NCBI GenBank assembly: GCA_017626035.1
Contig: JAGAJR010000013.1
Coordinates: 1-64,000 of the forward strand
DNA: 64,000 nt
Reading direction: 5' to 3'
Source of the DNA: Alphaproteobacteria bacterium
GTDB lineage: Bacteria; Pseudomonadota; Alphaproteobacteria; RF32; CAG-239
In this document: positions 2,142-17,048 of the stretch, piece by piece
Numbering within the stretch: position 1 is the stretch's first letter
Layout: every line of letters starts with the position of its first letter
Program-made: the position numbers and the translations under genes
Notes under the pieces: generated by a model
The model's database searches: none
What the model was told of the DNA's origin: nothing
Seen by the model: the letters and a program-made list of their open reading frames with translations, nothing else

Positions 2142-3725
2142 TTAGGGGTGTAGTTCAGCTGGTAGAGCGTCGGTCTCCAAAACCGAATGTCGCGGGTTCG
2201 AATCCTGCCGCCCCTGCCATGTTTGACAAGAGCCTATTTCAGCTAGTGCTGAAATAGGCTTTCTCATTGAAATAACTATATTTTTCCCGTCTAATAAAAT
2301 TTCCGAACAGAGTAATTTTAAAATCTTCTGTTTTTGTTCATTTTTCGGAAAATCCCAAATTTTGTCTGCATAAAAATACAGGTTAGTCAAATATTTAAGT
2401 GTTATATAGTTCTGTTGTACTAAGTAGCTGTAGCCTAAAAGTTGCTCGGCTATTTTTTCTTTTTCTTGGGCTAGTTCTTTTATTTTTTTGCTATGTATAT
2501 TCCGTGTAATACTAGCTTCGGCATACATCTCATGCCACCGTTCTTGTTTCGTGTCACATTCACGCAATTTTCGCTCTAAATATTTTTTATGTTCAATCTC
2601 AATCCTATGGTCTTCATATACCAAATCATCAAGGCATTTTGTCATCTTTTCTAACACGCCGTTAGGAAGCGATTTAAGCGAGCCTAAGGCTTGTTTTATT
2701 TTTTCAATGCCTTTTTCTTCATTTATATGCGTACCCTTGCATTTCGGGCAAAAAAGGTATTTATAAGCGATTTTTTCTCCACCTTTCTTTTTTGCCGCAT
2801 GGATGCTGATATAAGGCGATATCATTGCACCGCATTTTTTACATTTCATTACGCCCTTAAATAAGTGTTCGTGTTTTTGTTCTTTGTGATTTATACGTCC
2901 TTCCAGAATTTCTTGGCACCGGTTAAATGTTTTCCAGTCAATTAAGGTTTCGTATCGATGTTTGTAATACTCGCCATAACCGTACATCTCTCCGGCATAA
3001 AAGCGATTGGTCAAGATATTTCGTATTGTTTGTTTGTACAATTTTTTGCTTTTGGGCATTGTTAGTCCCATTTCCTGTGCTTTTTTCGTTATCTGTTCTA
3101 AATTATAAATTCCGCTTGCGTATTCTTTGAACAGAGCCGTTATAAGGAATCCTCTGTCAGGGTCAATAATAACATCACTGTTACCTTTGCTGTCTTTTAC
3201 ATTTAGGTAACCTACGGGTGCTCTATGAGCCCATTTCCCCTCTTTTCTCATCTGTTTAAGGCTCCGTTTTACGTTATCCGAAATACAGTCCGTATAGTTT
3301 TCAGCCATAACAACAATCATTCTGTAGCAGGCTAAATCAGAACCGTTTGTATCTTTTTCTATGACTTTATTTTCTCGCGAAAAATGCAGTTCGATTTTTC
3401 CGGCTTTTCGTAATTCTTCCAGCACCGGAACTTCTGAAACTCGTCGTTGTAGTCTGTCAACTTTATCGGAAATAATTGCTATGCGTTGTTTTTGACGCTT
3501 TACCCAGTTAATCATATCATGAAACTGTTTTCTATCCCCCTGCGTTGAACTTTCAATAATCTCAAAAATTTTAATAATTTCAATTCCTCTACGCTCGGCG
3601 TAGCTTTTTGAATTTTCAATTTGAGCATCTAAAGAGTAGCCATCCTCTTGTTCTCTTGATGAAACTCTTGCCCAAATGATACCTTTTGTTGCTGTTGCTT
3701 GAAATTTCTTTATCTGTCTTGGCAT
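2142..3725 (-). CDS. Large serine recombinase (island integrase), 527 aa
   Basis: A large serine site-specific recombinase, the likely integrase of the island. An N-terminal resolvase domain carries the catalytic motif ARVSS (Ser22) and the KVDRLQRR helix segment. A recombinase domain follows, then a zinc ribbon with Cys295/Cys298 and Cys326/Cys329, and a coiled coil at about 350-450. The start is supported by AGGA eight bases upstream of the ATG. The last 23 or so residues (GRQDSNPRHSVLETDALPAE...) are the antisense translation of tRNA-Trp, and the stop lies at the tRNA 5' edge. The C-terminus is therefore supplied by host DNA at the insertion site. It lies downstream of a second recombinase and a replication-initiator-like gene on the same strand. 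Confidence 0.92.
   Translation of the reverse strand: MPRQIKKFQATATKGIIWARVSSREQEDGYSLDAQIENSKSYAERRGIEIIKIFEIIESSTQGDRKQFHDMINWVKRQKQRIAIISDKVDRLQRRVSEVPVLEELRKAGKIELHFSRENKVIEKDTNGSDLACYRMIVVMAENYTDCISDNVKRSLKQMRKEGKWAHRAPVGYLNVKDSKGNSDVIIDPDRGFLITALFKEYASGIYNLEQITKKAQEMGLTMPKSKKLYKQTIRNILTNRFYAGEMYGYGEYYKHRYETLIDWKTFNRCQEILEGRINHKEQKHEHLFKGVMKCKKCGAMISPYISIHAAKKKGGEKIAYKYLFCPKCKGTHINEEKGIEKIKQALGSLKSLPNGVLEKMTKCLDDLVYEDHRIEIEHKKYLERKLRECDTKQERWHEMYAEASITRNIHSKKIKELAQEKEKIAEQLLGYSYLVQQNYITLKYLTNLYFYADKIWDFPKNEQKQKILKLLCSEILLDGKNIVISMRKPISALAEIGSCQTWQGRQDSNPRHSVLETDALPAELHP
2144..2219 (+). tRNA. trpT: tRNA-Trp (CCA anticodon)
   Basis: A complete cloverleaf can be folded. The acceptor arms AGGGGTG/CGCCCCT pair with one G-T wobble. 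The anticodon arm is TCGGT/ACCGA with loop CTCCAAA, giving anticodon CCA at 2177-2179. The T arm holds GGTTCGAATC, the discriminator is G, and the CCA tail is encoded. tRNA-Trp normally sits directly upstream of secE; here about 14.8 kb of accessory DNA follows it. The antisense strand of the whole gene is the 3' end of the neighbouring recombinase reading frame. Confidence 0.97.
2231..2260. repeat. 13-bp perfect inverted repeat beside tRNA-Trp
   Basis: AGCCTATTTCAGC (2231-2243), loop TAGT, then GCTGAAATAGGCT (2248-2260), starting 11 bases after the tRNA. It could be the tRNA terminator (a short TTTC follows), part of the recombinase attachment site, or both. On the other strand it is inside the recombinase reading frame. 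Confidence 0.8.
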
Positions 3726-3780
3726 ATTGTTGTTCCTTTTTTGTCTGTTTTTTTAATTAATGGATTGCTGGTTTCTTAAA

Positions 3781-3819
3781 GTCAATGAAGGCCGGAATTT
3801 AATCCAGCCTTCATTTGAC
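3781..3819. repeat. Inverted repeat between the two serine recombinases
   Basis: GTCAA-TGAAGGC-GGA is mirrored by TCC-GCCTTCA-TTGAC with one mismatch and one bulge. It lies 14 bases after the stop of the upstream recombinase. There is no clear T-run, so it may be a weak terminator or a recombinase binding site. Confidence 0.6.
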
Positions 3820-3832
3820 GGAGCGATTGCCC

Positions 3833-4666
3833 TTATTCCTTATTTTTTCGGTAATGTTTCAGGCGAATTTGGCACTTCTCCCAAACATCTTCCTCAACTA
3901 GGCGTTTGTAATAATGAGGGTAAATTTCTCCGTTGTGGCGGAATTGCCCCTTGTAAAACGGATTTTGCAAAATCCGAATTATGGCTTTAGTGCATAGAGG
4001 GTTATTCTTGACAGAAGTTAATCCTGCCTTAAGGCACCAAACGGCAAGTTGTTTAAGACTGTTACCTTCTACAAATTTTTTAAATATTTCGGCAACTAAT
4101 AGAGCTTTTTGGACATCGGTATAAATCCACGCCAGCCCATATTCGTTTCGTCGATTTCTGTATCCAATAGGGGCTAATCCCGGATAGCGTCCTTGTTGGC
4201 AACAAATCAATATTTTTTCACGGGTTTCTTCTGAAATCCGGTTACTAAACATTTCCGCATCAGCAGCAAGAAGACGAAATCTGTGGATGTCTGAAGCCGT
4301 AGAATCTTTAGTAAGGATCATGTTGTCTTTAACAGCATGAAGCTGCAATTTTCCTTGTTGTCGGAGTTTGTCTAGTTCCGGCATTTCATTGAATCGACGT
4401 AGAAGCCTGTCTATTTTGGTAAAGATCAGAGCAGTACAGCCGTCACATTTTTTTATATTGTTGAGCATTTGCTGAAATTCTTTTCGTTTGCCGCGAGAAG
4501 AACTTTCTTTCAGTGTGTAAACTTCAAATTGGTTAATGCCAAGATTTTTGATATATTTTTGGCATGTAGCCAATTGTTGTTCCGTTGATTCTTCAACGGC
4601 CTGTTTGGAGCAGGACACTCTGGTTAGCAAAATAATATGTTTAATTGAAGTATTTAAAATTTTCAT
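3833..4666 (-). CDS. Second serine recombinase, lacking zinc ribbon, 277 aa
   Basis: Resolvase domain with catalytic motif TRVSCS (Ser18) and FTKIDRLLRR, then a recombinase domain ending in the NPFYKGQF segment. It stops where the neighbouring recombinase would start its zinc ribbon, so the zinc ribbon and coiled coil are absent. It is either a naturally short partner or a truncated form. It overlaps the end of the replication-initiator-like gene by 4 bp (ATGA), which indicates translational coupling. It is clearly diverged from its neighbour, so the pair is not a recent tandem duplication. Adjacent serine recombinases sometimes act together in mobile elements, but a joint role is my inference. 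Confidence 0.85.
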   Translation of the reverse strand: MKILNTSIKHIILLTRVSCSKQAVEESTEQQLATCQKYIKNLGINQFEVYTLKESSSRGKRKEFQQMLNNIKKCDGCTALIFTKIDRLLRRFNEMPELDKLRQQGKLQLHAVKDNMILTKDSTASDIHRFRLLAADAEMFSNRISEETREKILICCQQGRYPGLAPIGYRNRRNEYGLAWIYTDVQKALLVAEIFKKFVEGNSLKQLAVWCLKAGLTSVKNNPLCTKAIIRILQNPFYKGQFRHNGEIYPHYYKRLVEEDVWEKCQIRLKHYRKNKE

Positions 4667-5556
4667 ATTTCATTCCTTTTAAGTTTAATAACATTATTTT
4701 CTTCTATTATCCTTTGAATTTGCAGATAATGCTTCATGAGCCAATCCTCTCTTGGGGTAATGTTTTTAATTTTCCGTAACAAGTCGTAAATCGCAGGTGA
4801 TAGTGTTTTTCCGGCATGGAAGCGAAATTCTCTCATGCCCATTTCACTTAAGACACTGGTTAGTCCGATGAGTTGCAGGGCTTTTAAAATTTTGTAACCG
4901 TTGTTAAGTAGCTGTTTGAACAAATCTGCGACATTTTCATTGCAGAGATGATGTATCAGGCACGCTTGCATAAGTTCGCCCCAGTAATAAAGGTTAATCT
5001 TGCGGCAGATTTCACTTTGAAACAGGTTTTCAAAAGTCAATTCTGGGACGTTAACCTCTGCTTTATTTAAGGCTTGCCGAATTGCGTCTGAATTACCGAG
5101 CTGAATCTCGAAACGTAGATATTGTTCTTCGTTTAGAGATGTCCAATCAAGTAATTGAGCGTTCTCACCTACAGCCCGGCGTGGACTAAAATTAGCTTTT
5201 CTAATGTCGGCTAACTTATCATAGAGTACGACATTCTTATGCGTTGTTAAAAAGTGCAATGAATGTCCATCATTACGGTAAGTTTTGTTGGCAGAGTCTA
5301 GGCGTTTGCTTATGTCTGCTTTAGCTAATTCTTGCAGCAGCAATGCAGGCTTTATCTGTACTTTGCAATTTTTGCCATAATCGACACGAGTGACTTTTGC
5401 CTTTCGGATGCTTTCTGGCGAAACTCTTGCTCCAAGTTCAGATATACGCTTTTGCAAGGTCTTAACGATGGTTTCAAAATCCTCATCACAAACCTCTTCA
5501 AGGTTGTTTGACGGTTGGTTAATCAGTTTCATAGCTGAAAATTCTATTCGCAGCAT
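4663..5556 (-). CDS. Replication-initiator-like mobile-element protein (first ATG)
   Basis: I recognise this as the type of conserved protein found beside serine recombinases in integrative elements; it resembles plasmid or phage replication initiators. Landmarks are LRIEFSAMKL, VDYGKN, SKRLDSANKTYRNDGHSLHF and NVVLYDKLADI, followed by a C-terminal helical part. The coordinates use the only in-frame ATG, but family-like sequence continues for another 71 codons upstream without any ATG, GTG or TTG (see next entry). Starting at this ATG would cut into a conserved block. The biochemical role is inferred from family resemblance. Confidence 0.65.
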   Translation of the reverse strand: MLRIEFSAMKLINQPSNNLEEVCDEDFETIVKTLQKRISELGARVSPESIRKAKVTRVDYGKNCKVQIKPALLLQELAKADISKRLDSANKTYRNDGHSLHFLTTHKNVVLYDKLADIRKANFSPRRAVGENAQLLDWTSLNEEQYLRFEIQLGNSDAIRQALNKAEVNVPELTFENLFQSEICRKINLYYWGELMQACLIHHLCNENVADLFKQLLNNGYKILKALQLIGLTSVLSEMGMREFRFHAGKTLSPAIYDLLRKIKNITPREDWLMKHYLQIQRIIEENNVIKLKRNEI

Positions 5557-5769
5557 GACGCTATATTCTCCAACGCGACGATGAGCCGTTACTAATAATT
5601 TAGGATAATAATTTTTCTGCTTTTCAATTGCTGTCGCGTAGCTAGAGCAATTTACCGATTGTGCGTTGCCTAAATTCCATAAAATTTCAAGATTGGGCGA
5701 AAACCGTTCAGGTTTTGTAATCTTAATGTCTTGGTATGGAATTAGCAGAATGAAGGTGTCGGCAACATT
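5557..5769 (-). pseudogene. N-terminal extension of initiator-like gene without a start codon
   Basis: The frame of the downstream gene stays open upstream and translates to a plausible N-terminus: NVADTFILLIPYQDIKI, then SYATAIEKQKNYYPKLLVTA leading into the ATG-started part. The DTF...IPY and PKLLVT blocks are what I expect of this family. No ATG, GTG or TTG occurs in frame. An ATG at the edge of the eight-A run (5768-5775) is in another frame and stops after eight codons. The explanations are loss of the start by mutation, a frameshift at the A-run, or a non-standard start such as AUU or AUA. Confidence 0.6.
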
Positions 5770-5773
5770 TTTT

Positions 5774-5959
5774 TTATTCGATGTCGTTCTCCTTTCCTGT
5801 TTCGATTAACGTTTTTAGTTCTGGTGTTTCCTGAACCGTGTCAGACAGCAGCTTGGCGATTTGAAGCAGAGCATCACCGGCCTCGATGGCTTCCTCTTCG
5901 GAAAGTTCGGGGCAGAAACTGCGAATTTCTTCGTAATATTCTTTAAGGTGTTTGCTCAA
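5774..5959 (-). CDS. Small acidic helical protein, 61 aa, TTG start
   Basis: An unrecognised 61-residue acidic protein rich in Glu and Leu, probably all helical. The TTG start is supported by AAGGA eight bases upstream. It ends at the edge of the A-run that precedes the initiator-like frame, so both are probably on one transcript. In similar elements such small genes precede the replication or recombinase genes, but I cannot assign a function. Confidence 0.65.
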   Translation of the reverse strand: MSKHLKEYYEEIRSFCPELSEEEAIEAGDALLQIAKLLSDTVQETPELKTLIETGKENDIE

Positions 5960-6123
5960 TTTTCTTATCCTTAGGTTGCTTGTTTGCAGCCGTTAAGCTG
6001 TTGTTATGACAAAAGAATATCAGAGGACGGCGGCTGTGTCATTTGAAGTGAATTGAAGAAAATCGGATATTTTTTGAAAAAATCAGACGTTTTTTTGAAC
6101 TTTTAAGAAAAATGCAAAAATTC

Positions 6124-6153
6124 AAAAAAAATGGTCTCAAATTTTGAGACCAT
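6124..6153 (-). terminator. Intrinsic terminator after the 259-aa gene
   Basis: ATGGTCTCAAA and TTTGAGACCAT form an 11-bp stem, followed on the minus strand by seven T residues. It lies about 20 bases past the stop of the upstream gene, so the recombinase group further left needs its own promoter. I see no convincing one between 5960 and 6120. Confidence 0.85.
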
Positions 6154-6174
6154 TGGGTGAGGTGTTTGCTTGCT

Positions 6175-6954
6175 TTAGTGTTTTGGCGGAATAATATCTT
6201 GGATGTGATTCCTGATTGTCCGCTCCGTTGGACCTGGTGTACGGTAGTGGTCAAAGATTCTCCGAATCTCTGTTGCCGCTTGATTTAGAGTGTAGCCGGC
6301 TTCTTTCATCTTAACGGCCCAGCTCCGGTAATGTTGCTTCAGTTCCAGCTTTCCGCATTTCTGGCATATAGCATCCTTCAATTGTTCTTCTGCCGTTTCA
6401 AAATCAATAGAATCGGTTCTGTACAACACATCCAGTTCATCAAATTGAACAGTAATGAAAGCGAATCCTTCTGTACGAATATATATGCCATTGTCGGTTA
6501 ATGATACGCAGGTTAGATTTTGGGCGATTATGCTATGTTGCCAGTCAAAATCATAGACGGATAGCTCATTGGGTAAAAGGACGCGTTCCAACGGTTCTTC
6601 TTTATTATCGCGGACTATCTCCAGTGGGTAGCGATGGCTAAAGAAAGAAGTCGGTGTATCCGGCTCAATCCAGTCGTTGTACGGATATAATGCTTGTTGT
6701 CCGTTCTCTTGTATAACTTTTAAAAAGTTGTCGTCCAAAGAGGGAACATCGTTAATTTCGATTTTGCCGGGAATACCGTAGAGCTTCAAGAGGCCTGCTT
6801 CAATCCAAGAACGCAAAGAGACTTTTGCTGCGTCCATTTCTTCATCGTCGAAGTAGCAAGTACGTTCTTTATCCAAATGATACGGCAGTGGTACTGTTCT
6901 ATTAGCGGTAAATTCAAGAGCTTGGACAAGACTGATAAAATTACTATGGTGCAT
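6175..6954 (-). CDS. Unrecognised island protein, 259 aa, with HTH-like C-terminus
   Basis: No family recognised. The N-terminal half contains an ETFDDEEMD-type acidic stretch and a possible ligand or nucleic-acid region. A CxxCG pair (CQKCGKL) lies in the middle. The last 50 or so residues (AGYTLNQAATEIRRIF, then TERTIRNHI) look like a helix-turn-helix, suggesting DNA binding. The start chosen is the ATG at 6954, with GGAG six bases upstream; longer forms starting at 6966 or at a TTG at 7005 lack a ribosome site. It is flanked by terminators on both sides and is probably a single-gene unit. Confidence 0.6.
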   Translation of the reverse strand: MHHSNFISLVQALEFTANRTVPLPYHLDKERTCYFDDEEMDAAKVSLRSWIEAGLLKLYGIPGKIEINDVPSLDDNFLKVIQENGQQALYPYNDWIEPDTPTSFFSHRYPLEIVRDNKEEPLERVLLPNELSVYDFDWQHSIIAQNLTCVSLTDNGIYIRTEGFAFITVQFDELDVLYRTDSIDFETAEEQLKDAICQKCGKLELKQHYRSWAVKMKEAGYTLNQAATEIRRIFDHYRTPGPTERTIRNHIQDIIPPKH

Positions 6955-7150
6955 TTTGTTCTCCATATTTGTAAAATTAAAATAACTACAGCCATAGAGA
7001 ACCAAAAAACATAAGAAACCTAAGCTGTAGAGCCAGTGGGTTCATCATGTTTTCTTTTCAAGCAGCAAGACCCGGAATATGCTTGACCCGGTGGGATTTG
7101 CTGTAATCGGTATAATAAAAGAATTTCATTGTCAAGAGCACTTTTAAAAG

Positions 7151-7186
7151 AAAAAAACAGCCCCGAATAAAAGATATCCGGGGCTG
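7151..7186 (-). terminator. Terminator of the autotransporter gene
   Basis: CAGCCCCG pairs with CGGGGCTG and is followed on the minus strand by seven T residues, about 20 bases after the autotransporter stop. Confidence 0.92.
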
Positions 7187-7208
7187 CTTTGTTTGGATGA
7201 TTTAACGC

Positions 7209-9689
7209 TTAAAATTTATACTTGGCGTTAATCAAGCCTGTGTGGTCTTGGTAGTCCTCACGGAATTTGCCTTCATAACCAAGCGAAAGTTCGACACTAT
7301 CGTTGACTTCCGCTGTTACACCGGCACCAAATTCCATACCGAAACGGTCAAGAGCTTCACCATTTACAGTATAAGCAGAACCGTTTGCCAAGGTTACAAC
7401 CGAATTAACATCATCGTTCATCAGGTCATAAGTTGCGGCAATGCGTGCTTCCGGTTTGATATTCATACCGTTGGACAGCTCAAAGTTCTTACTGACTTTG
7501 GCTCCGATAACACCGGTCAAAATATCGCTGTCATTGGCAGAAACACGCTGGTCGGCAGAATCTTTGTAAGCGTCTTGTTTGATGTGAACGTAACGCAATC
7601 CGGCTTCCGGTGTAACACCCAAGCCGTTGACATTCATGTCATAACCGGTCATTGCCTGCAAACCAAAGGTTTCGACATCGTAGTCAGCTTTGACACCAAC
7701 TCCGGCAACACTCTTCTTTTCTTCATAGTCAGACCAGCCGTAGGTTGCGATACCGTTTATATACCAGTTAGACGGTTTATATTCGCCATACAGGATAGCA
7801 GTATGCGTATCGACATCAGTATCACGCATGAAACCATCTATATCGGTATTGGTATAAGCGTAACCAATACCAACTTTGACATTATCGTTGACAAACTTTT
7901 CAGCACCGAACGCAATACCAGAGCTGTCTGCATCAAAGCCTTTCGCCTTGGATGTATCGTCCAGTTTGGATTTGTTGAACAATCCCTGAACCCACATTGC
8001 ACCGCGTTTGAAGATATTGTCGCCGGAAGCCATCCCTTCACCACCGGTAGAGATTGAGCCGCCGGTTAAACGGGTTGATACGGCACCAAAGACTTGATTA
8101 GCCGTTTCAGTCTGGGTTTTCTGAACCATCGGCGCAACTTCCGGAGCAACGGCAGTCAAAGCGTCAACATAGGCTTTTTGCTCGGCAGCACTGGTGCTGT
8201 TGGAAAGCTGTGCCAGTTTTTCCGTAACGGCAGCAGCAACCGGGGAGCTGTTTGAGGCACTGACGCTGTCCCATGCCTCGGCTGTTCCGGCATTATTGGC
8301 AGAACCACCGGCATCAACAACAGCATCCGTGGCAGAACCGACAGAAGTAACTTCAAAAGTTCCGTCGCCATTGTCCGTAAATTCATAACGGGAATTTTGG
8401 CTTAGATTTGCAAATTTGCCTTCAACCTCTGCTTCGGCAACATCGGCACCGTTAAATAATTTAAAAGTAGCTGTTTCGCCTTTAGCCAAAGCGGCACTGT
8501 TTAAGGTCATATTCAAATTTGTGCCGTTTTCGCTGATTTTGATATAATTGGCTTTGATTTTGCCATAGGTATCTTTATCGGTTACGGTAAAGGCTAAAGT
8601 TGAATTATCGGCAAAAATGACACCTTCGCCATCGGCTTTATCACCGCTTGAATGCAGTGTTTTATCGCCGATATCCAGCGTTGCACCATTGCCGACCTGA
8701 ACAGTCGTAATTGTATCAGTCGGTTCTTTATCAAATGTCAGAGTTCCCTTGTTGATGGCTAAAATGTCTAAAGCTCCGATATCGCCGCTGATTGCATTAT
8801 TTAAAGAGTGGCTGTTTTCAAAAATCAGGCTGACATCTTCAACATTACCGTCAATTTTGGCGTTTGAATTTTGGAAATGAATTTTGCCGCGGTCATCACC
8901 ATTAATATTGGCACTTAAAGCTCCAGCCAGATTGATTTTTGAGGTGCTGTCATTCATGGTTATTGTTGCTTTATTGCCAAAAGTTACAACATCAATGTCT
9001 GCATCATCTGAGTCCGGCTCATCGATTTTGTAATTTTCATAAGCGAATAAGGTTGCTCCCTCTTTAATGTCCAGAGTTGCATCACCTCTTAATTTGATAG
9101 AGGTACCAAAAATAACATTACCATTATCGTAAATATCATTCGCAGAACTGCCAAGACCAACGCCACCTTTAACATTTATCACGCCACCACTGATATCTGT
9201 TGTGCCTCCGGCATAGCTTGTTACAGTTCCTTCAACTTTTTCGGTATCTCTTCCAACAGCACCTATTTGCGTTTGGTCGTTTGCATTAATCGTGCCGCCG
9301 GTCATCGCAAATGAATTGTTTTCCCTCAGCTCACCTTTGTTAAGGTTGATTGTTCCTCCGCTGATGGTTAACTTGTTTGTGTCGATATCGCTGTTATTAT
9401 TTAAATTAAGAACAGCATCTCCGCTGATTTCCGTATTACCGTTAAAAGTCTTAATAGTGGAATCATTTAAGGATAACGTTCCGCCGTTGACCGTCAAATT
9501 TTTTCCGTCAGGATAATTCAGGCTAACAGTAGAACTGTCTTTTGTCGAAACATTACCACCGGAAATTATTACATTGTCAGTATATTCACTTTCCAGAACT
9601 GTGTCTGAATTGATAGCTACATCCGCAAAAGCATTGCCGGACACCGAAAGTGCCACCAATGCCGTTGTCATTAATAAAGTTTTTTTCAT
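7209..9689 (-). CDS. Autotransporter adhesin-like outer-membrane protein
   Basis: A type V secretion protein of about 826 residues. It has a Sec signal peptide (MKKTLLMTTALVALSVSGNA then FAD), a long passenger of repeated short beta-strand units rich in Gly, Asn, Asp and Ser (a beta-helix pattern), a linker near 500-560, and a C-terminal autotransporter barrel of about 270 residues ending in aromatic KYKF. The passenger would be displayed or released at the cell surface; adhesion is a guess from the class. The preferred start is the ATG at 9689; the ATG at 9701 directly abuts the AAGG ribosome site. It is monocistronic with a strong terminator and faces away from the hydrolase gene across a highly structured spacer. 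Its base use looks closer to the core genome than that of the defence-like genes further right. Confidence 0.9.
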   Translation of the reverse strand: MKKTLLMTTALVALSVSGNAFADVAINSDTVLESEYTDNVIISGGNVSTKDSSTVSLNYPDGKNLTVNGGTLSLNDSTIKTFNGNTEISGDAVLNLNNNSDIDTNKLTISGGTINLNKGELRENNSFAMTGGTINANDQTQIGAVGRDTEKVEGTVTSYAGGTTDISGGVINVKGGVGLGSSANDIYDNGNVIFGTSIKLRGDATLDIKEGATLFAYENYKIDEPDSDDADIDVVTFGNKATITMNDSTSKINLAGALSANINGDDRGKIHFQNSNAKIDGNVEDVSLIFENSHSLNNAISGDIGALDILAINKGTLTFDKEPTDTITTVQVGNGATLDIGDKTLHSSGDKADGEGVIFADNSTLAFTVTDKDTYGKIKANYIKISENGTNLNMTLNSAALAKGETATFKLFNGADVAEAEVEGKFANLSQNSRYEFTDNGDGTFEVTSVGSATDAVVDAGGSANNAGTAEAWDSVSASNSSPVAAAVTEKLAQLSNSTSAAEQKAYVDALTAVAPEVAPMVQKTQTETANQVFGAVSTRLTGGSISTGGEGMASGDNIFKRGAMWVQGLFNKSKLDDTSKAKGFDADSSGIAFGAEKFVNDNVKVGIGYAYTNTDIDGFMRDTDVDTHTAILYGEYKPSNWYINGIATYGWSDYEEKKSVAGVGVKADYDVETFGLQAMTGYDMNVNGLGVTPEAGLRYVHIKQDAYKDSADQRVSANDSDILTGVIGAKVSKNFELSNGMNIKPEARIAATYDLMNDDVNSVVTLANGSAYTVNGEALDRFGMEFGAGVTAEVNDSVELSLGYEGKFREDYQDHTGLINAKYKF

Positions 9690-9746
9690 ACGATTAAACA
9701 TCCTTGTTAACTAGTTAAAACAAAACCCACCATTCATAAAGAAAGG

Positions 9747-9896: not shown

Positions 9897-10022
9897 GCCC
9901 TAAGCAGTAAACTGCTCGGATTTATATTATAAAGCCTTTTGAAGACAATCAAGCTAAAAGTCAAAAACCCTCTGGAATTTTTATAAATAGTCCGATATAG
10001 TCTTTTATAAAGGGCTGAATAT

Positions 10023-10772
10023 ATGATAAAAATATTAATAACTTTGCTGTTTCTAACCGGGTGTACAACAATCAAAACCCCGACTGATTTTGTGTATAAA
10101 GAGGTTAAGACAAGGGATTTTACTCTTGCCAGTTGGCAAAAGGTAACAAATCCGGTGGCTCCTTACAAAATATATATAGAAGGAGATGGTTACGCCTTTA
10201 ATGTCCGAGGCAAGGCAACGCAAGACCCGACACCTCACAGCACCCTAGTTCGTGAACTGGCTTTCGGTGATAAAAGTCCGAATGTCATTTATCTGGCAAG
10301 GCCGTGCCAATATGTTAAAAGTCTGATTTGTTCAAAAAGACATTGGACGACTGCCCGTTTTGCTCCTGAAATTGTCAATGCCGAATATGAGGCAATTAAA
10401 AATATTGCCGAACATAATTCAGTCATTCTAATTGGCTTTTCCGGTGGAGCACAGATTGCCGGATTGGTGGCGACTGCCAAACCGGGGCTGAATGTCAAAA
10501 AGATTATAACCATTGCCGGAAATCTCGACCACTTGGCATGGACGCAATATCACAACCTGCCGCCGCTTAATGAATCAATGAATTTGGAAAGCTACCTCAA
10601 ACAGTTCGCACAACTTCCGCAAATTCATTATGTCGGCAGTAATGACAAGGTCATGCCACCGGTTTTGATTCGTGAATTTGTCGATAATGATGATTTAATC
10701 GTTGAAGTGGACGGAGCAAGCCATAACGAGGGCTGGGAAAAAATTTATAATAAAGTCTGGAGCGAAAGATGA
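10023..10772 (+). CDS. Lipoprotein alpha/beta hydrolase, 249 aa
   Basis: A predicted lipid-anchored serine hydrolase. The N-terminus is a short signal peptide with lipobox LTGC (Cys14). The nucleophile elbow is GFSGGA (Ser140). The other triad members are probably Asp208 in GSNDKV and His234 in GASHNEGW, in the order expected for the alpha/beta hydrolase fold. IYIEGDG near residue 50 likely forms the oxyanion side. The substrate is unknown; esters, peptides or cell-wall material are possible. A GGG-containing ribosome site lies about eight bases upstream. It overlaps the next gene by 4 bp (ATGA), so the two are translated together. Confidence 0.82.
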   Translation: MIKILITLLFLTGCTTIKTPTDFVYKEVKTRDFTLASWQKVTNPVAPYKIYIEGDGYAFNVRGKATQDPTPHSTLVRELAFGDKSPNVIYLARPCQYVKSLICSKRHWTTARFAPEIVNAEYEAIKNIAEHNSVILIGFSGGAQIAGLVATAKPGLNVKKIITIAGNLDHLAWTQYHNLPPLNESMNLESYLKQFAQLPQIHYVGSNDKVMPPVLIREFVDNDDLIVEVDGASHNEGWEKIYNKVWSER

Positions 10773-10981
10773 AAAGAACCTTATGCTTATTAATTTTCCT
10801 GCTTTTATCCGCACCTGTTTTGGCTGCCGACAACTCAACCGTGGTGATGAATACCAAGACTTATATTTATCATAGCCCAACCTGTAAATGGGCAAAACGT
10901 TGTACCAAAAACTGTATAAAAACTACCAAAGACAACGCAAAATCACAAGGTGCCAGACCTTGCAAAGTCTGCGGCGGATAA
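10769..10981 (+). CDS. Small secreted Cys-rich protein, 70 aa
   Basis: A signal peptide (KRTLCLLIFLLLSAPVLA then AD) leads to a mature part of about 50 residues with five cysteines: YHSPTCKWAKRC, KNC and RPCKVC. The HxPxC...RPCxxC layout resembles the small metal-binding modules found in Ada-type and nuclease-associated secreted proteins, so zinc binding or disulfides in the periplasm are plausible. It overlaps the hydrolase lipoprotein gene, so the pair probably works in the cell envelope. The exact function is unknown. Confidence 0.75.
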   Translation: MKRTLCLLIFLLLSAPVLAADNSTVVMNTKTYIYHSPTCKWAKRCTKNCIKTTKDNAKSQGARPCKVCGG

Positions 10982-11104
10982 ACTCATTATATAATCTAAG
11001 TTTTATAATGAGTCCTTATTTTTCAAGCATTACAAGACTTTGAGCCTGGACTTTTATTTTATACTCATTATAATTTATCACATAGATTCAATAACATAAT
11101 GAGT
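10982..11104. repeat. Four 9-bp ACTCATTAT repeats upstream of tyrosine recombinase
   Basis: ACTCATTAT at 10982-10990 and 11063-11071, and its exact complement ATAATGAGT at 11005-11013 and 11096-11104, give two inverted pairs in 123 bp. The first pair can also form a weak AT-rich terminator after the Cys-rich gene. The last copy ends 11 bases before the recombinase start. This is the arrangement expected of binding sites for the recombinase itself, for integration, inversion or autoregulation. Confidence 0.6.
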
Positions 11105-11115
11105 TTGAAGTAAAA

Positions 11116-11715
11116 ATGGCACTTAACAAGCAGGCAAAAATCCTCACACCGAAGCAGCAGAAACTGGCATTGAGCTATCTGGAACAGACAAGATATCCGC
11201 TTCGCAACAAAATTATTTTTATGCTTAGTTACAAGGCCGGATTGCGGGCAAAAGAAATAGCAAATCTAAGCTGGCTGATGGTTTGCGATTCGCAAGGACA
11301 ATTAAGCCGCGAAATTAACCTTATTAATAAGGCTTCCAAGGGTAAGCAATCTGGCCGGATTATTCCTCTGCATAAAGATTTGGCGGTTTTATTGGCAGAA
11401 TTACTAAGTAAGCAACAGAAGGACGAGCATTTTAATTTGACGAATCGGATTATCACGACAGAACGCGACAATAAGACCAGCCCGCAGGCAATCGTCAATT
11501 TCTTTTATAACTTATATAAAAAAATAGGCTTTGAAGGTTGCTCCTCGCATAGCGGTCGCAGAACATTCATTACCACCGCCGCTAAAAACATCAGCCTTGC
11601 CGGCGGAACCTTAAACGACATCCGTATGCTGGCCGGACATTCCACCCTTGCCACTACCCAACGCTATATTGAATACAACACCGATGCCCAGAAGAAAATT
11701 GTAGAGATGGTTTGA
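11116..11715 (+). CDS. Small tyrosine recombinase, 199 aa (FimB/XerD-like)
   Basis: A compact tyrosine recombinase made almost only of the catalytic domain. The active-site residues are all present: Arg44 (GLRAKE), a lysine near 75, His145-x-x-Arg148 (HSGRR), His175 (LAGH) and Tyr184 (TQRYIEY). At 199 residues it matches FimB/FimE-type invertases and the short integrases of small elements, not full-length XerC/D (about 300). There is no separate N-terminal core-binding domain beyond about 25 residues. It is preceded by four 9-bp inverted repeats. It ends 1 bp before the stop of the convergent ATPase gene. Confidence 0.88.
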   Translation: MALNKQAKILTPKQQKLALSYLEQTRYPLRNKIIFMLSYKAGLRAKEIANLSWLMVCDSQGQLSREINLINKASKGKQSGRIIPLHKDLAVLLAELLSKQQKDEHFNLTNRIITTERDNKTSPQAIVNFFYNLYKKIGFEGCSSHSGRRTFITTAAKNISLAGGTLNDIRMLAGHSTLATTQRYIEYNTDAQKKIVEMV

Positions 11716-11716
11716 T

Positions 11717-13636
11717 TTAGTTCTTTTTCTTTATTATGTCCAAAAAGGCCTTATTACGTGCTTCTGCATCTTGGATAATTGCTTCAACAGACATTACAAC
11801 AACGTAAATAGGAGGAATTTCTTTGCTAAAATATCTTGCAAAAATTGAAAAGCCTTTTGCAGTGGAAAATAAAGGAATATAATCATCTCCGGTTAAACTG
11901 GCTCTTAAATCATCATCTAATTTTGTAACTAAATAAACCCAGAAATCTTTTATTTTATTATTGTTTTTGTAAATTGTTCGAGCATAGTCTCTCAACTGAT
12001 CTGCTCCTATTTTCTTTTTTCTATGATTTATTCCAAATGGTTTTATTTCTACTAAAACACAAGATAAATTTTCAACGTCAGGAGCATCCGAATAGAACAT
12101 TGCTAAATCCGGTCTATCTATTTCTTCTTTTATATCAATACCAGAATATTTTATAATTTTATTAATTTCCATATCACTAGCAGCATAGGTATATGATAAA
12201 AATTTATCATCAAGCAACCATAAGTTACTATCATACGATGATATTTTGCTATGCTCATTATTGACACTTTCTGTTCTCATATCCATAAACAAATTATGAA
12301 TCATCTTCTCTATTTTTTCATCATTGTCTGCCATTTTTTTCATGGCTTCAATAATTTGCTGGCGATAACTGATGTAAGCAGCCAGCTCTCGTGACGCCAT
12401 TTCACTTACATCATCTAAAGAAGAAAATAGGTCTTTTTCATTAACCTTTTTTTTCTTTAGTAAGTTTTTGAAATTGCTTTTAATCTTTAATTTTTCTGCT
12501 TCATATTTTTCTTTTGCTAGCTTAATTACCTGTAATTTTTTAGGATATAAGCTTTTATCCTCTCTTATATATTTTGCTAAATAGGGATATTCTTCAATAC
12601 ATTCTGCTAAAATACTTTCTCTTTCATTGTTAAGTTCAGGGTATCTTGTACTTAAAATCTCATCTACATTCTGTTTTAATGTTCTATTAATCTCAGTAAA
12701 AGAGATATTTTCAAAATCTCCTTCTTCATCTTCCTCTTGTTTTATGCTAAATTCATTCCGTTCATCATTAACCATTTTGTCTAGATAAGGAGAAGTCAGT
12801 AACATAATTACTGAGTTATTGTCAGGAACTTTAGTAAATGAAACATTCTCGCTAAATTTAGAAACAGCTCGGTTATTGGCACAATAATGAAGTTCAATAT
12901 ACTTCATATCTGGATTTTCAACAAAACTATAATACAAGTCAAAAGGAAAAACGGTATTTGAGGTATTGGTAACCTCAAAGCTTTGTTTATTTAACTCAGG
13001 AATATTACGCTCATTAATGTTAACTTCTTTATCTTCCGCTTTTAATTTTATGTTAAAGTTTTGCCCCTGATTCTTTAAAAAGGTTAGCTTTACCAGAAGA
13101 TGTTTTTCTAATTTATTTCTAATTAAATCAATATCCGCAAGCTCACGTTTGTCAATAATAGTTCCTTTAGAAGGTGTTCTGTAATAATTTTGAGTTACAT
13201 TCTTAAATTGAATATTTGTATAGCTTGACTGCAAATGGTCAGATGACTTAATTATAATATCAGTGTCTTCGTTAAAGTTTTTGGTAAAATTTATCGAAAT
13301 ATCATTACCATCTGCGTAGCTTTCAATACTAATATTTTCAAATACTTTAAGCCATGTTAAGCGTCCAATACCCTTACAGCCTAATTCTTGCTTATATGAT
13401 GACCACAATGTTTTAAAAGAGCTAATGCTTTCTTGTGTAAAACCTCTACCATTATCAAATATGGAAAAACCCGTCATATACCCAACATTGTCGTCAAGAA
13501 GATTGTCTTCAACGTTTAAAGTAATAACTACTTCATTAGCTCCTGCCTCTAATGAATTGCTTACAGCTTCAAACATAGGTTGAAGATATGATATATTTCT
13601 GAATTTATTAACAACTGCTGTTAAATTTACTTCCAT
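11717..13636 (-). CDS. GHKL ATPase fused to PD-(D/E)XK-like nuclease domain, 639 aa
   Basis: The N-terminus is a GHKL (MutL/Hsp90/MORC-type) ATP-binding fold: EAVSNSLEAGA with Glu23 and Asn27, DNGRG at 61-65 and KGIGR at 88-92. The middle (about 330-470) is charged and helical, likely coiled coil. The C-terminus looks like a PD-(D/E)XK nuclease: Asp510 in RPDLAMF, EIK at 530-532 and Gln547 in ADQLRDYA. MutL/MORC-type ATPases joined to nucleases are known from restriction-like and anti-phage loci, so a defence role is my inference. It has its own promoter and a strong ribosome site (GGAGG, five bases before ATG), and it looks more AT-rich than core genes. No methylase partner is adjacent. Confidence 0.8.
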   Translation of the reverse strand: MEVNLTAVVNKFRNISYLQPMFEAVSNSLEAGANEVVITLNVEDNLLDDNVGYMTGFSIFDNGRGFTQESISSFKTLWSSYKQELGCKGIGRLTWLKVFENISIESYADGNDISINFTKNFNEDTDIIIKSSDHLQSSYTNIQFKNVTQNYYRTPSKGTIIDKRELADIDLIRNKLEKHLLVKLTFLKNQGQNFNIKLKAEDKEVNINERNIPELNKQSFEVTNTSNTVFPFDLYYSFVENPDMKYIELHYCANNRAVSKFSENVSFTKVPDNNSVIMLLTSPYLDKMVNDERNEFSIKQEEDEEGDFENISFTEINRTLKQNVDEILSTRYPELNNERESILAECIEEYPYLAKYIREDKSLYPKKLQVIKLAKEKYEAEKLKIKSNFKNLLKKKKVNEKDLFSSLDDVSEMASRELAAYISYRQQIIEAMKKMADNDEKIEKMIHNLFMDMRTESVNNEHSKISSYDSNLWLLDDKFLSYTYAASDMEINKIIKYSGIDIKEEIDRPDLAMFYSDAPDVENLSCVLVEIKPFGINHRKKKIGADQLRDYARTIYKNNNKIKDFWVYLVTKLDDDLRASLTGDDYIPLFSTAKGFSIFARYFSKEIPPIYVVVMSVEAIIQDAEARNKAFLDIIKKKN

Positions 13637-13668
13637 ATCTTCCTCCTATAATATTAACGGACTGAAAA

Positions 13669-13697
13669 ATTATAGAGTGCATCAATTATATTATCAA
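13669..13697 (-). promoter_or_regulatory. Promoter of the GHKL-nuclease gene
   Basis: On the minus strand, -35 TTGATA (13692-13697), a 17-bp spacer and a consensus -10 TATAAT (13669-13674). The gene starts about 33 bases past the -10. Confidence 0.8.
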
Positions 13698-13707
13698 TCC
13701 ATTTTTC

Positions 13708-13724
13708 AATATTGTCACAATATT
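13708..13724. promoter_or_regulatory. Palindromic operator candidate
   Basis: AATATTGT-C-ACAATATT is a perfect 8-bp inverted repeat with one central base. It ends 11 bp upstream of the -35 of the GHKL-nuclease promoter. A dimeric regulator could bind here. The site lies in the spacer after the 84-aa gene. Confidence 0.55.
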
Positions 13725-13732
13725 AAACAAAA

Positions 13733-13987
13733 TTATTCGCCTTTATCCGCCCTTTCAAAAATAGCACCTAAGACTTCAAGATTTTTAATCGTGGCCTTTA
13801 GTATCTTATTTTGCATTGCACGGAGCGTATAAAAATTTTTGCTTTTGTTTGATTCCATTGTTTTGACAATCATTTCAACTTCCAAGCCTGTATAGCAACG
13901 CATTATTCGCGTAAACGGATTACTGAAATGTTTTAATGCATAATTTAGCGCCGTATTGTCCAGACAAATATAAAAGTCTTTAATCAT
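13733..13987 (-). CDS. Unrecognised basic small protein, 84 aa
   Basis: A mostly helical, slightly basic protein, MIKDFYICLDNTAL..., without recognised motif, signal peptide or membrane segment. AGGA lies nine bases before the ATG. It is upstream of the GHKL-nuclease gene on the same strand, but a separate promoter lies between them. It could be a regulator binding the palindrome just past its stop; this is speculation. Confidence 0.5.
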   Translation of the reverse strand: MIKDFYICLDNTALNYALKHFSNPFTRIMRCYTGLEVEMIVKTMESNKSKNFYTLRAMQNKILKATIKNLEVLGAIFERADKGE

Positions 13988-14033
13988 TTTTATTATTCCT
14001 TTTGCGATTGGTTATATAATAAAAATATTGAGG

Positions 14034-14207
14034 TCAGTTTATTTTTAGAATTTTCTGAACCTGAGGATCGTTCTCCAAACTTTGAACAATAGGGTACAAT
14101 TCGGTTAATTCATCGGCGTATTTTTTCCTAAGGTCATAAAGTTTGCGCTGCCAAGGAAAATCAAGGGTTTGCGAGGAATTGCAAGCCCTTTTATTCTGAC
14201 TTTTAGC
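14034..14207 (-). pseudogene. Coding remnant without start, about 57 codons
   Basis: An open frame with protein-like composition, SSQTLDFPWQRKLYDLRKKY then ELTELYPIVQSLENDP, ends at a TGA but begins just after an in-frame stop and has no usable start codon. It is probably the 3' end of a lost gene, upstream of the 84-aa gene. Identity unknown. Just upstream, GTCAGAAT occurs twice near 14257-14275 and inverted near 14194, which suggests a rearrangement junction. Confidence 0.45.
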
Positions 14208-14280
14208 CTACATTTTGGCTCACGCAGAATCAAATACTTAGCACCGTTTGTCAGAATAAAGTCAGAATGAATTTTGGCAT

Positions 14281-14302
14281 AAAAAACCCCGATTTCTCGG
14301 GG
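14281..14302 (-). terminator. Orphan minus-strand terminator
   Basis: CCCCGA/TCGGGG stem with six T residues on the minus strand. No minus-strand gene lies immediately upstream of it, so it is probably left from a deleted gene. Confidence 0.75.
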
Positions 14303-14333
14303 GGCATTGTTAATCGATGTTCAGATATTGTGA

Positions 14334-14483
14334 TTACTTGTTACGGATTGTAAATTTAATGGCAAGAGGTTGGAATACAAACTCAAAGCCCCATTTGATA
14401 AGCTGGTTGCTTGCTCAAATTATCAAGACTGGTCTCAAGTTGCTGTCGAGAATTTAGGAGAGTTTGAGAAAGCGATAGTGTGA
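14334..14483 (+). pseudogene. C-terminal remnant of a third serine recombinase
   Basis: A 49-codon open frame, opening at an in-frame stop, reads LLVTDCKFNGKRLEYKLKAP then FDKLVACSNYQDW and ends in TGA. The pattern G-x-x-L-x-Y-x-x-K-x-PFD followed by W is the typical end of large serine recombinases; compare LLDGKNIVISMRKPI in the intact one at 2142. It is on the plus strand, opposite to the intact recombinases. It indicates a second, older insertion that has lost most of its integrase. Confidence 0.5.
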
Positions 14484-14567
14484 TTTTGGGGTTTTCTTCT
14501 TGCGTGTATAAATTTTTTTATCTACATTATCAATAGAAGTTAAATAAATAAGTAGGAAGGGTTATCT

Positions 14568-14864
14568 ATGTTTAATTATGGAGTAATGCCTAATTCGGCT
14601 CAGTCTGCAAGTAGAATTTATGAACAACAGAAGAAAGAAAAGCTGCTACAAGAACAAAAAGAGAGATTACAATACGAACGTGAAAACCGCAGAGATCAAG
14701 TAACCGAAGAATATAATCAAAAGAGTCTTGAATTGGCAGAACAGGCTAAATTGCTTAGTGAGAAGTCAGTAAAATTTACAAAATTATCTTTATGGATTGG
14801 AGAGATAACCTTACTTGTGACTACAATTGGAGCTGTTTTTACAATTTTAAGCTATTTTAGGTAA
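14568..14864 (+). CDS. Coiled-coil protein with C-terminal membrane anchor, 98 aa
   Basis: Residues about 17-70 are a heptad-like, Glu/Lys/Gln-rich coiled coil. Residues about 74-97 (LWIGEITLLVTTIGAVFTIL) form one membrane segment, so it is a tail-anchored protein with a cytoplasmic coiled coil. GGAAGGG lies six bases before the ATG. The next gene begins 11 bases after the stop, making a two-gene operon. I infer that it tethers or senses for the nuclease-like partner. No family recognised. Confidence 0.75.
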   Translation: MFNYGVMPNSAQSASRIYEQQKKEKLLQEQKERLQYERENRRDQVTEEYNQKSLELAEQAKLLSEKSVKFTKLSLWIGEITLLVTTIGAVFTILSYFR

Positions 14865-14875
14865 AGATTATATAA

Positions 14876-16240
14876 ATGGTAATAAAAAAATCATCTGGAT
14901 TTACAGAAGGAGAGAGACAGGTAGCTGAACTATGTGAACATAGTTTTCTAAAATTATGGAGTTATCCTAACTTATTTAAACAACAAGGAAAAGAACTTTG
15001 CGATAATCTAATTTTATTTGGTGATACTATTATTCTTATTTCGGAAAAGACTAAAACTCCGTTTGAGTATGATTATTCTTTATATGGAGATGAAGATTCT
15101 AAGAAGCCAATAGGTGAAAGACATATAGATATTTTGTGGAGAAGATGGAGTAAAGAATTAAAATCATCTGAAGATCAATTAAATGGTGCAGAGCGATGGA
15201 TAAAGAAACACCCTGACCAAATTTATCTCGATTCTAAATGCCAAAATAAGTTTCCATTAAAAATATCGGATATTGAAAATTTTAAATTTATAAAAATATC
15301 CGTAGTTAATGGACTGGATAAAGTTAATAAATTAAGAGAACAAGCTTGTAATAATGAACTGGCTTATGAGCTACCATCTGATATGATGTTGTTTAAAATG
15401 GATTTAAACAATATTATCCATTTGTTGGATGATTATACATTTCCTATTATAATGAAAGAATTGGATACTGTAACAGATTTTATACTTTTCTTTCAAAAAA
15501 AGGAAGATTTACTAAAATCGGGAAAGTGCCTATTGGGAATCTTAGATTTAGATTTGTTGCCAATATATTTAACGAATATTGATTATGAAAAGTGTTGTTT
15601 TTGTTTGGGAGAATTGGAGCAAGAAGCTAAGAAGGCTGATTTTATAATAATTGATAATCCTATTGATCCATATCCTGAATTTATAAAAGAAAAAAGATAT
15701 ATTGATTTTCGAAACAGTTTAAAAAATAGTTATTTATGGGATAGACTTATAAACAGTTGTTCGCAAGATGCTTTTGATGATGTTCTAATTGAGGGAAAGG
15801 ATTTAGATAAAGTTGATACTATTTTGCGAATTATGGCCTCAGAAACTAGATTGTCTAGATGTGAATTATCTAAATTATATATGGATGTTATTTATTCTTT
15901 TGATATTTCTAGACTATATAAAGGACGAGCTGTTCAATCCCTATGTAATAAAGAAATTATGTATGTATTTCTTCAAGTGAGTAAACAGGATGAAGAAACC
16001 TATGAGGAGTACCGTAAACGGCGCTGTGGACTTGCAGAAATGTATTGTTGGGCAATCAACGCGAATAATGATATTATCAAACATATTGTTGTAATTGCTT
16101 CAGAGCCGGTAAAATATAATCAATATCTAAGTCGTGATTTTATTCTATATCCTTGTCAGTTATTGTCACCAGAAGAAAAGATTGAGATATTAAAAATGCA
16201 AAAAGAACTTAATATTTTAAATGGCAACACATCTAGTTAA
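14876..16240 (+). CDS. Nuclease-like protein, 454 aa, partner of coiled-coil gene
   Basis: The N-terminal 110 or so residues have the outline of a PD-(D/E)XK/NERD-like fold: an early Glu-rich helix, GKELCDNLILFGDTIILISE with Asp43, Lys58 closing the second strand, then a W..RW segment and SSEDQLNGAERWI, where Gln would be the late motif. The usual E-x-K is replaced by S-E-K, so catalysis is uncertain. The remaining 340 residues are unrecognised. It is AT-rich with many ATA and AGA codons, unlike the core genes, which points to transfer. Together with the tail-anchored coiled-coil gene it makes a compact cassette of the type seen in defence islands; that role is inference. Confidence 0.7.
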   Translation: MVIKKSSGFTEGERQVAELCEHSFLKLWSYPNLFKQQGKELCDNLILFGDTIILISEKTKTPFEYDYSLYGDEDSKKPIGERHIDILWRRWSKELKSSEDQLNGAERWIKKHPDQIYLDSKCQNKFPLKISDIENFKFIKISVVNGLDKVNKLREQACNNELAYELPSDMMLFKMDLNNIIHLLDDYTFPIIMKELDTVTDFILFFQKKEDLLKSGKCLLGILDLDLLPIYLTNIDYEKCCFCLGELEQEAKKADFIIIDNPIDPYPEFIKEKRYIDFRNSLKNSYLWDRLINSCSQDAFDDVLIEGKDLDKVDTILRIMASETRLSRCELSKLYMDVIYSFDISRLYKGRAVQSLCNKEIMYVFLQVSKQDEETYEEYRKRRCGLAEMYCWAINANNDIIKHIVVIASEPVKYNQYLSRDFILYPCQLLSPEEKIEILKMQKELNILNGNTSS

Positions 16241-16246
16241 AAAAAT

Positions 16247-16327
16247 ATGAAAAGTAAAATAGATAGAAATGATGTGTATTCATATAGAAACAAATTAAAA
16301 GATGAAGAATACTGTTTGTATAAATAA
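16247..16327 (+). CDS. Possible 26-aa peptide
   Basis: ATG-started frame MKSKIDRNDVYSYRNKLKDE... ending in TAA, six bases after the nuclease-like gene. No clear ribosome site; it may be translated by coupling or be chance. No function assigned. Confidence 0.25.
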   Translation: MKSKIDRNDVYSYRNKLKDEEYCLYK

Positions 16328-16396
16328 GTCCGTGGATTGCACTATGTGCCCAGCCAGTTAAGATAAGCTGTCCGAAAGGGTGGTGAGGTTATTTAA

Positions 16397-16428
16397 TAAA
16401 AAACCCGCAAAACAGTATGTTTCGCGGG
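16397..16428 (-). terminator. Terminator of the small membrane-protein gene
   Basis: CCCGC-AAAC/GTTT-GCGGG hairpin. The one imperfect pair is G-T on the minus strand and A-C on the plus strand, and the T-run is on the minus side, so it acts for minus-strand transcription. The stretch 16328-16396 shows no gene I can identify. Confidence 0.85.
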
Positions 16429-16469
16429 ATTGAAATCGTTAATACTCGTTAACTAATTTATTAATTAAC

Positions 16470-16739
16470 TTACCTAACTCTACAGCCTTTAGAACGGATG
16501 TTCATGGAGAATTTGCTGCATTCCAAATCATTCGTAGGTGAACGGATATGTACCGAGAGGGATGTTCCCGTGATGTTATTTAAGACATTCGTCTTTTCCC
16601 TCTTTAAGCAAGACATCATCGGGGGTAAATAAATCGGTTCGCTACTGTCCTGAATTTGTCTTAATTCTAATGTGTCGCTATCGTAAATGATAAGGACTAA
16701 CAGACAAAACAGGATTGTTATAACAAAATAAGTGTCCAT
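16470..16739 (-). CDS. Small membrane-anchored protein, 89 aa
   Basis: MDTYFVITILFCLLVLIIYD gives one N-terminal membrane segment; the remaining 65 or so residues are polar with three cysteines and probably outside the cytoplasm. The frame is open to 16796, but the TTG there is the -35 box, so the ATG at 16739 is the start, about 20 bases past the inferred transcription start. There is no clear ribosome site. A near-consensus promoter and a matched terminator strongly indicate a real transcription unit. Family unknown. Confidence 0.6.
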   Translation of the reverse strand: MDTYFVITILFCLLVLIIYDSDTLELRQIQDSSEPIYLPPMMSCLKREKTNVLNNITGTSLSVHIRSPTNDLECSKFSMNIRSKGCRVR

Positions 16740-16767
16740 GAGCCATAATTGTAATTTTCTGATGAGG

Positions 16768-16796
16768 TTTATATGGAGGAAATGCTTTTTTGTCAA
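16768..16796 (-). promoter_or_regulatory. Near-consensus promoter of the small membrane-protein gene
   Basis: TTGACA (16791-16796), exactly 17 bp, TATAAA (16768-16773), read on the minus strand. Confidence 0.85.
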
Positions 16797-16894
16797 GATA
16801 ATTTTATGGTCGGTGCACTTGTCGAAGGATTGTGTATGGCAAGTTGTTAATCTGTTGTATGTTCAGGTTATTGAGGGCGATAAGAATATATTTA

Positions 16895-16923
16895 TTGACA
16901 TCTAAAAAATAATTGACTATGTT
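16895..16923 (+). promoter_or_regulatory. Promoter of secE-nusG
   Basis: TTGACA (16895-16900), 17-bp spacer, TATGTT (16918-16923), about 125 bp before secE. The island separates secE from the tRNA-Trp promoter, so this one probably drives secE-nusG now. The stretch from here to secE holds no gene I can see. Confidence 0.65.
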
Positions 16924-17048
16924 TGCGGCATTGAGCTAGGCATATATGTGGTGCAAAAGGTTTTGTTTGTACTATGTTGTGTTTTGTTATTTTCTTTCCG
17001 GTTTGGAAATGAATGGTTTTTAATTTTTTTTTATAATGGATAGGATCC

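Follow-up and report, generated by a model that had tools for sequence, protein, structure and literature searches.

In the window (the whole 64,000-nucleotide stretch of DNA analysed, from a gut-type alphaproteobacterium), the 3′ end of the tRNA-Trp gene is occupied by an 11.9-kb element, E1, whose large serine recombinase (LSR) gene, int, very probably contains the attachment site attP, integration exchanging the C-terminus of the enzyme and taking it from 541 to 527 aa. Behind E1 stands a second, smaller element, E2, followed by secE. The features of the interval are as follows.

2144–2219 (+), tRNA-Trp(CCA), the attB target (ARAGORN, Rfam)
2214–2219, attL core CTGCCA, the final 6 nt of tRNA-Trp (attL compared with attR)
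2220–14153, E1, 11.9 kb, integrated at the 3′ end of tRNA-Trp (homology break and CTGCCA repeat)
2142–3725 (−), large serine recombinase gene int, integrated form of 527 aa (Pfam Resolvase and Recombinase; PHROG 95 integrase)
2231–2260 (+), hairpin in the int 3′ end, stem 2231–2243/2248–2260, then TTTCTC (nine-element alignment)
3833–4666 (−), small serine recombinase, 277 aa, catalytic and recombinase domains only (Pfam)
4663–5556 (−), probable G2P-like rolling-circle replication initiator, 297 aa (conservation, Phage_CRI)
6175–7005 (−), cargo protein, 276 aa (ORF; also in the G071 and G127 elements)
7209–9701 (−), autotransporter, 830 aa (Pfam PF03797, 3.2e-55)
10023–10772 (+), serine-hydrolase-like protein (weak), 249 aa, lipoprotein-like N-terminus (Pfam FSH1, 4.8e-5)
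11116–11715 (+), minimal tyrosine recombinase, 199 aa (Pfam PF00589; PHROG 216)
11717–13636 (−), GHKL-ATPase cargo protein, 639 aa (HATPase_c_3, 4.5e-8; phrog_6203)
14034–14153 (−), orphan native int 3′ end, WQRKLYDLRKKYADELTELYPIVQSLENDPQVQKILKIN* (in frame, homologues, purifying selection)
14154–16356, E2, 2.2 kb, in tandem behind E1 (left end, E1 attR; right end, att arm)
14321–14483 (+), C-terminal remnant of a class-b (not split) LSR (against the intact G023 gene)
14568–14864, 98-aa ORF of E2
14876–16240 (+), E2 cargo protein, 454 aa (phrog_18195, 2e-35)
16327–16356 (+), E2 right att arm, AGTCCGTGGATTGCACTATGTGCCCAGCCA (same arm in relatives)
16357–17048, putative leftover of the ancestral tRNA-Trp/secE spacer (from the native flank of relatives)
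17049–17246, secE

The int gene and its displaced 3′ end

BLASTN similarity to the elements of G071 (at tRNA-Trp), G029 (at tRNA-Gln) and G021 stops jointly at 14153/14154, where the attR core CTGCCA (14148–14153) is identical to the final six bases of tRNA-Trp. The original prediction had left the right boundary undefined, reporting no repeat of the tRNA 3′ end; E1 in fact ends at 14153 with the CTGCCA repeat and E2 at 16356, the repeat having been overlooked because the core of a serine recombinase is short. A right boundary at secE is ruled out by these two right ends nearer tRNA-Trp. Read by eye, the attR flanks of the G071, G029 and G021 elements contain a hairpin and then a T-rich stretch, which is what the native terminator of the target tRNA, once displaced, would be expected to look like.

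At the left end, the int product has a PF00239 Resolvase catalytic domain followed by a PF07508 recombinase domain, and resembles the TP901-1 integrase catalytic domain. The frame has no stop inside E1: it reads antisense through the entire tRNA-Trp gene and stops at 2142, the final 23 codons of the integrated gene being tRNA antisense and W503 the complement of the tRNA CCA end. Serine recombinases had correctly been placed at this end (the LSR ORF and the small serine recombinase, both on the minus strand), the passage of the LSR frame through the opposite strand of the tRNA having gone unremarked.

The far end of E1 carries an orphan tail of 39 codons, with no start of its own, which starts precisely at the attR core and runs to 14034. 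When the ends of E1 are joined at the core, the result is an uninterrupted int frame of 541 aa, and C-termini reconstituted in this way align without gaps, through a conserved Trp, with intact class-b (unsplit) LSRs, in which a comparable C-terminal segment forms the ordinary coding end after the same Trp. In-frame orphan tails are likewise present in G071, G127, G029, G131 and G021, a further one lies elsewhere in this genome (C3:10274–10366), and the tRNA-Leu and tRNA-Thr element families have tails of their own, each beginning at its own core. The tail ends of this genome (G000), G071, G029 and G021 were located by homology and their in-frame status was seen afterwards; the G131, Leu and Thr-array tails come from a search of the int frame alone. 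G063 has an int 3′ fragment that runs straight into a tail without an intervening tRNA, as would be expected at attP or after a tandem insertion. By its sequence, E1 has the marks of a self-disrupting integrase, attP probably lying within the integrase gene and integration parting that gene.

Among the genomes compared, neither a circle nor any split-type gene at full length, tail included, was found, and tails of the Asp, His, Pro and Glu groups were likewise not found. One Asp tail candidate was discarded, as it lay at equal distance from int at both loci, within homologous interior sequence. One gene of the Glu group that does not adjoin a tRNA stops about one codon beyond the core; the tRNA-Glu-type LSR found off any tRNA on G178 C8 (L161) ends ...EGIAIGDA*, which is perhaps the native uncut C-terminus of the group. 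In a search of virome records for circular copies, the candidates MT837677.1 and MT836653.1 both contain the tRNA and hence are integrated forms, and the IMG/VR contigs stop inside or at the LSR and have no clear attP. Four stretches from a Chloroflexota sample, searched for tails via tRNA-end repeats, contained no such repeat of ≥10 nt, in keeping with a core of ~6 nt.

Selection on the tail was estimated outside its first 30 nt, which are likely an att half-site. Three pairs gave a dN/dS ratio of 0.07–0.18 and a fourth, with few differences, one of 0.38; a fifth pair was saturated. Pooled pN/pS was 0.18 for the int frame, against 0.67 and 2.41 for the remaining frames, and third codon positions hold 22 of the 34 differences (p = 2e-4; four separate pairs, three families). 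Constraint is weaker in the Thr-array tails (pN/pS 0.64), yet this value is still the lowest of the frames. The tail is under purifying selection in the int frame only. It has no start codon when integrated, and selection must therefore take effect while tail and gene body are fused, presumably in the circle; conservation of the tail could in part reflect an attP half-site at the DNA level.

This codon selection, lying past the att half-site and confined to one frame, makes it unlikely that the overlap with the tRNA is trivial, i.e., that the LSR needs no tail to be complete, translation merely continues into the adjoining sequence, and the far-end DNA is an attP half-site in frame by chance. 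The retention of a similar segment as a normal coding end in class-b LSRs also argues against triviality, as does the finding that none of 39 tRNA-adjacent LSRs has its own stop ahead of the tRNA. A trivial overlap would fit the resemblance of the first ~30 nt of Thr-type tails to class-b non-coding att arms and the variability of the tRNA antisense tails, which run from about 4 to over 20 residues; low-efficiency translation giving a variable C-terminus was named as a possibility for the Dehalococcoides islands (PMC3146451).

Taking an exchange of C-termini as the preferred reading, we propose the following scheme, which builds on what can be read from the sequence, namely the ends, the in-frame split, the selection on the tail and the recurrence in other elements. 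E1 would exist as a circle in which int is complete, encoding 541 aa, of which the last 39 are the native tail. A crossover at the CTGCCA/TGGCAG core would join the int body to the tRNA and leave the tail at the far end, and the integrated gene would read the antisense strand of the tRNA to give 527 aa with a foreign tail. The full-length enzyme would carry out integration; the exchanged tail would alter the enzyme, the tRNA-tailed form being impaired or in need of help to excise, which could come from the small serine recombinase, from the integrase of another element, or from a tandem neighbour that supplies a tail. Given the split, there is about an even chance that it renders integration self-limiting and directional. 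The wider picture is tentative and slightly on the doubtful side: a widespread bacterial serine-integrase clade with its own gene as attP, in which the tail swap would serve as an in/out record and a direction switch, ~2-kb integrase-less units stacked at tRNA-Thr, each with core plus tail at its end, would be moved in trans, and a neighbour's tail would restore the enzyme.

The 3′ end of int may have further duties. The hairpin at 2231–2260 shows one compensatory pair, C–G to T–A, across nine aligned elements, and by its predicted structure can replace the displaced tRNA-Trp terminator on the plus strand. This stretch of int may be protein coding sequence, att arm and tRNA transcript end in one.

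Target range and comparison with known systems

The LSR set comprised 65 non-redundant frames from the family and a few classmates. A tRNA lies antisense at the 3′ end of 39 of these frames, and all 39 overlap it, by 12–201 nt. The overlapped tRNAs are of eight types (Gln, Leu, Thr, Glu, Trp, Pro, Asp and His). In 31 of the 39, the int frame reads the complement of CCA; in the Glu group this complement falls in another frame, so that TGG TGA is avoided. The LSR tree requires 14 changes of target group versus a minimum of 8, and targets have therefore switched repeatedly. Overlap with tRNAs is also common among distant LSRs (22–43% identity; Elusimicrobia, Planctomycetes, Bacteroidetes and others), and in a phylum sample around a Chloroflexia record about half of the LSRs overlap tRNAs and one overlaps tmRNA. 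The latter, L254 (G560), comes from a 1.4-Mb genome and is possibly a DsiB-type integrase. At three tRNA-Thr loci (L098/G008, L152/G125 and L162/G178) core plus tail is repeated 2–4 times at a spacing of ~1–2.5 kb, an arrangement that suggests integrase-less units stacked behind the tRNA.

The closest known system to E1 is that of the Dehalococcoides ssrA islands, with the integrases DsiB and DsiA (McMurdie 2011, PMC3146451). Like E1, DsiB islands have an LSR of ~540 aa that adjoins attL on the reverse strand with a second, small serine recombinase beside it; the LSR frame overlaps the target RNA gene and has no stop within the island, and islands occur in tandem, some without the integration module. 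Unlike E1 and its relatives, which target tRNAs for at least eight amino acids, they target ssrA (tmRNA), and their module genes are RecF-, ParB-, Mom- and RNA-polymerase-like, in place of which E1 carries a G2P-like gene together with different cargo. The authors of that study proposed that dsiB is complete perhaps only on the circle or beside an island carrying a 3′ fragment (PMC3146451). The missing fragment postulated there is here located, at the far end and under selection, in elements that target many tRNAs. The tRNA targets and the located, selected fragment are what is new relative to DsiB; an earlier description is possible, as the literature covered was partial and preprints lay outside it.

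Self-disrupting recombinases have been called exclusively archaeal in a review, which describes the split enzyme of archaeal suicidal (SSV-type) integrases as inactive (PMC8371274). The likeness to E1 is that attP lies within the integrase gene and integration leaves one fragment at each end. SSV-type integrases are, however, tyrosine recombinases, a family unrelated to the serine recombinase of E1, and the catalytic part is severed in them, whereas only the C-terminal ~39 residues are severed here. Our findings suggest that self-splitting integrases are not limited to archaeal tyrosine recombinases. In Myxococcus phage Mx8, attP lies inside int and the new 3′ end is reported to alter specificity without inactivation (PMC6070905), a precedent for a modified enzyme as the archaeal integrases are for an inactive one; a survey of tyrosine integrases groups the Mx8 enzyme with integrases extending across attP (PMC4383910). 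In Mx8, as in E1, integration supplies int with a new 3′ end; Mx8 differs in being a phage and in having an enzyme outside the recombinase clade of E1. SCC elements, whose target is the end of the rlmH/orfX gene, share with E1 a serine recombinase pair (CcrA/CcrB) and tandem elements at a fixed gene end; they differ in target, and the 277-aa small recombinase of E1 is only weakly similar in sequence to CcrA/CcrB. Phage phiRSM1 (tRNA-Ser) and mycobacterial AICEs (tRNA-Leu) are described, in the passages on them, as using tRNA-gene targets (the 3′ end for phiRSM1) with a serine recombinase, as E1 does; the same passages give phiRSM1 a small recombinase and an attP between genes, and report a split integrase for neither (PMC3218068, PMC3816273).

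A direct test is possible, since two natural forms of one enzyme can be compared. The arrangement would account for an annotation oddity, namely recombinases that end in tRNA-antisense peptides such as GRQDSNPRHSVLETDALPAELHP. It also bears on the mining of serine integrases for genome engineering, as proteins predicted from such integrated elements would have the wrong C-terminus.

Contents of E1 and history of the junction

The small serine recombinase and LSR pair recurs in homologous elements, and the gene for the 297-aa protein adjoins this pair throughout the subfamily. A replication role for this protein is probable from weak Phage_CRI matches in 5 of 11 members of its family (best, 6.9e-5), the member from E1 itself having no match; it had two matches to unnamed viral-library entries, and a PDB fold search gave no significant match. 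Defence-system models gave no meaningful match, and none to the 639-aa GHKL-ATPase protein. The autotransporter gene is preceded by a very stable structured leader (9700–9945, minus strand; z = -6.2), which matches sRNA-Xcc1 (4.7e-5) and DUF3800-I RNA (0.15) in Rfam below the threshold. This leader is common to the G029 and G007 elements; G071 and G127 have an unrelated block instead. The 199-aa tyrosine recombinase is kept across E1-type elements and is partly duplicated in G029 (L066 8107–8844, 10649–10845), and inverted repeats lie directly upstream of it at 10980–11115. Inversion of the autotransporter promoter by this recombinase was considered and rejected, the divergent promoter being without suitable flanking inverted repeats. 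In G021, the attL of an E1-type element (L068, C3:100000–118000) is joined to a class-b-like att arm and not to a tRNA, probably through stacked insertions; another LSR, overlapping tRNA-Gln, lies ~20 kb from it.

That E1 is a dead relic, its arrangement without present function, is improbable: an integrase deprived of its native end may be inactive, and the neighbouring E2 is clearly degraded, but the body of E1 occurs at 90% nucleotide identity at tRNA-Trp in genomes of other genera, its ORFs are intact, and differences in the int body fall mostly at third positions (15/11/47).

E2 is older than E1 and clearly degraded. A terminator-like hairpin at 14163–14190, after the E1 attR, marks its left end. 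The opposite-direction recombinase remnant that had been predicted at 14.3 kb is indeed there, an LSR C-terminus that matches the intact G023 gene at 86% identity over 147 nt. The right arm AGTCCGTGGATTGCACTATGTGCCCAGCCA is present in the tRNA-Trp/secE gap of relatives (e.g., L072, L076, L082 and L102) and also directly downstream of an intact unsplit LSR gene. It is followed by a decayed form of the sequence that comes after CCA in relatives, with a terminator-like stretch at 16367–16384, apparently the decayed native terminator of tRNA-Trp. The final ~0.7 kb ahead of secE is most plausibly old spacer, and the gap as a whole would consist of two tandem elements, E1 and E2, plus this remainder. 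The two att right ends bear out the prediction of at least two insertions.

The distance between tRNA-Trp and secE is 14,829 bp, matching the 14.8 kb given in the original prediction; the gene to the left of tRNA-Trp is dxs and not, as had been stated, tuf. Outside the bacterial family, the spacing was 19–264 bp in the genomes read, and a short spacing is likely ancestral. One family member, G013, has a gap of 44 bp and the others have 0.45–15.2 kb, most family genomes having an insert of some kind (all genomes compared are draft or metagenome assemblies). Relatives with tRNA-Trp close before secE had been anticipated and are thus found in G013 and outside the family. Gap sizes of 44 bp to 15.2 kb across the family mark the junction as an integration hotspot, and the differing content of these gaps agrees with the view that the interval is accessory. 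That the gap holds one long island, or vertically inherited core sequence of the same content, is very improbable, for although most family genomes hold something in the gap, its content and size vary among relatives, E1 homologues are found at other tRNAs, and two att right ends lie within it.
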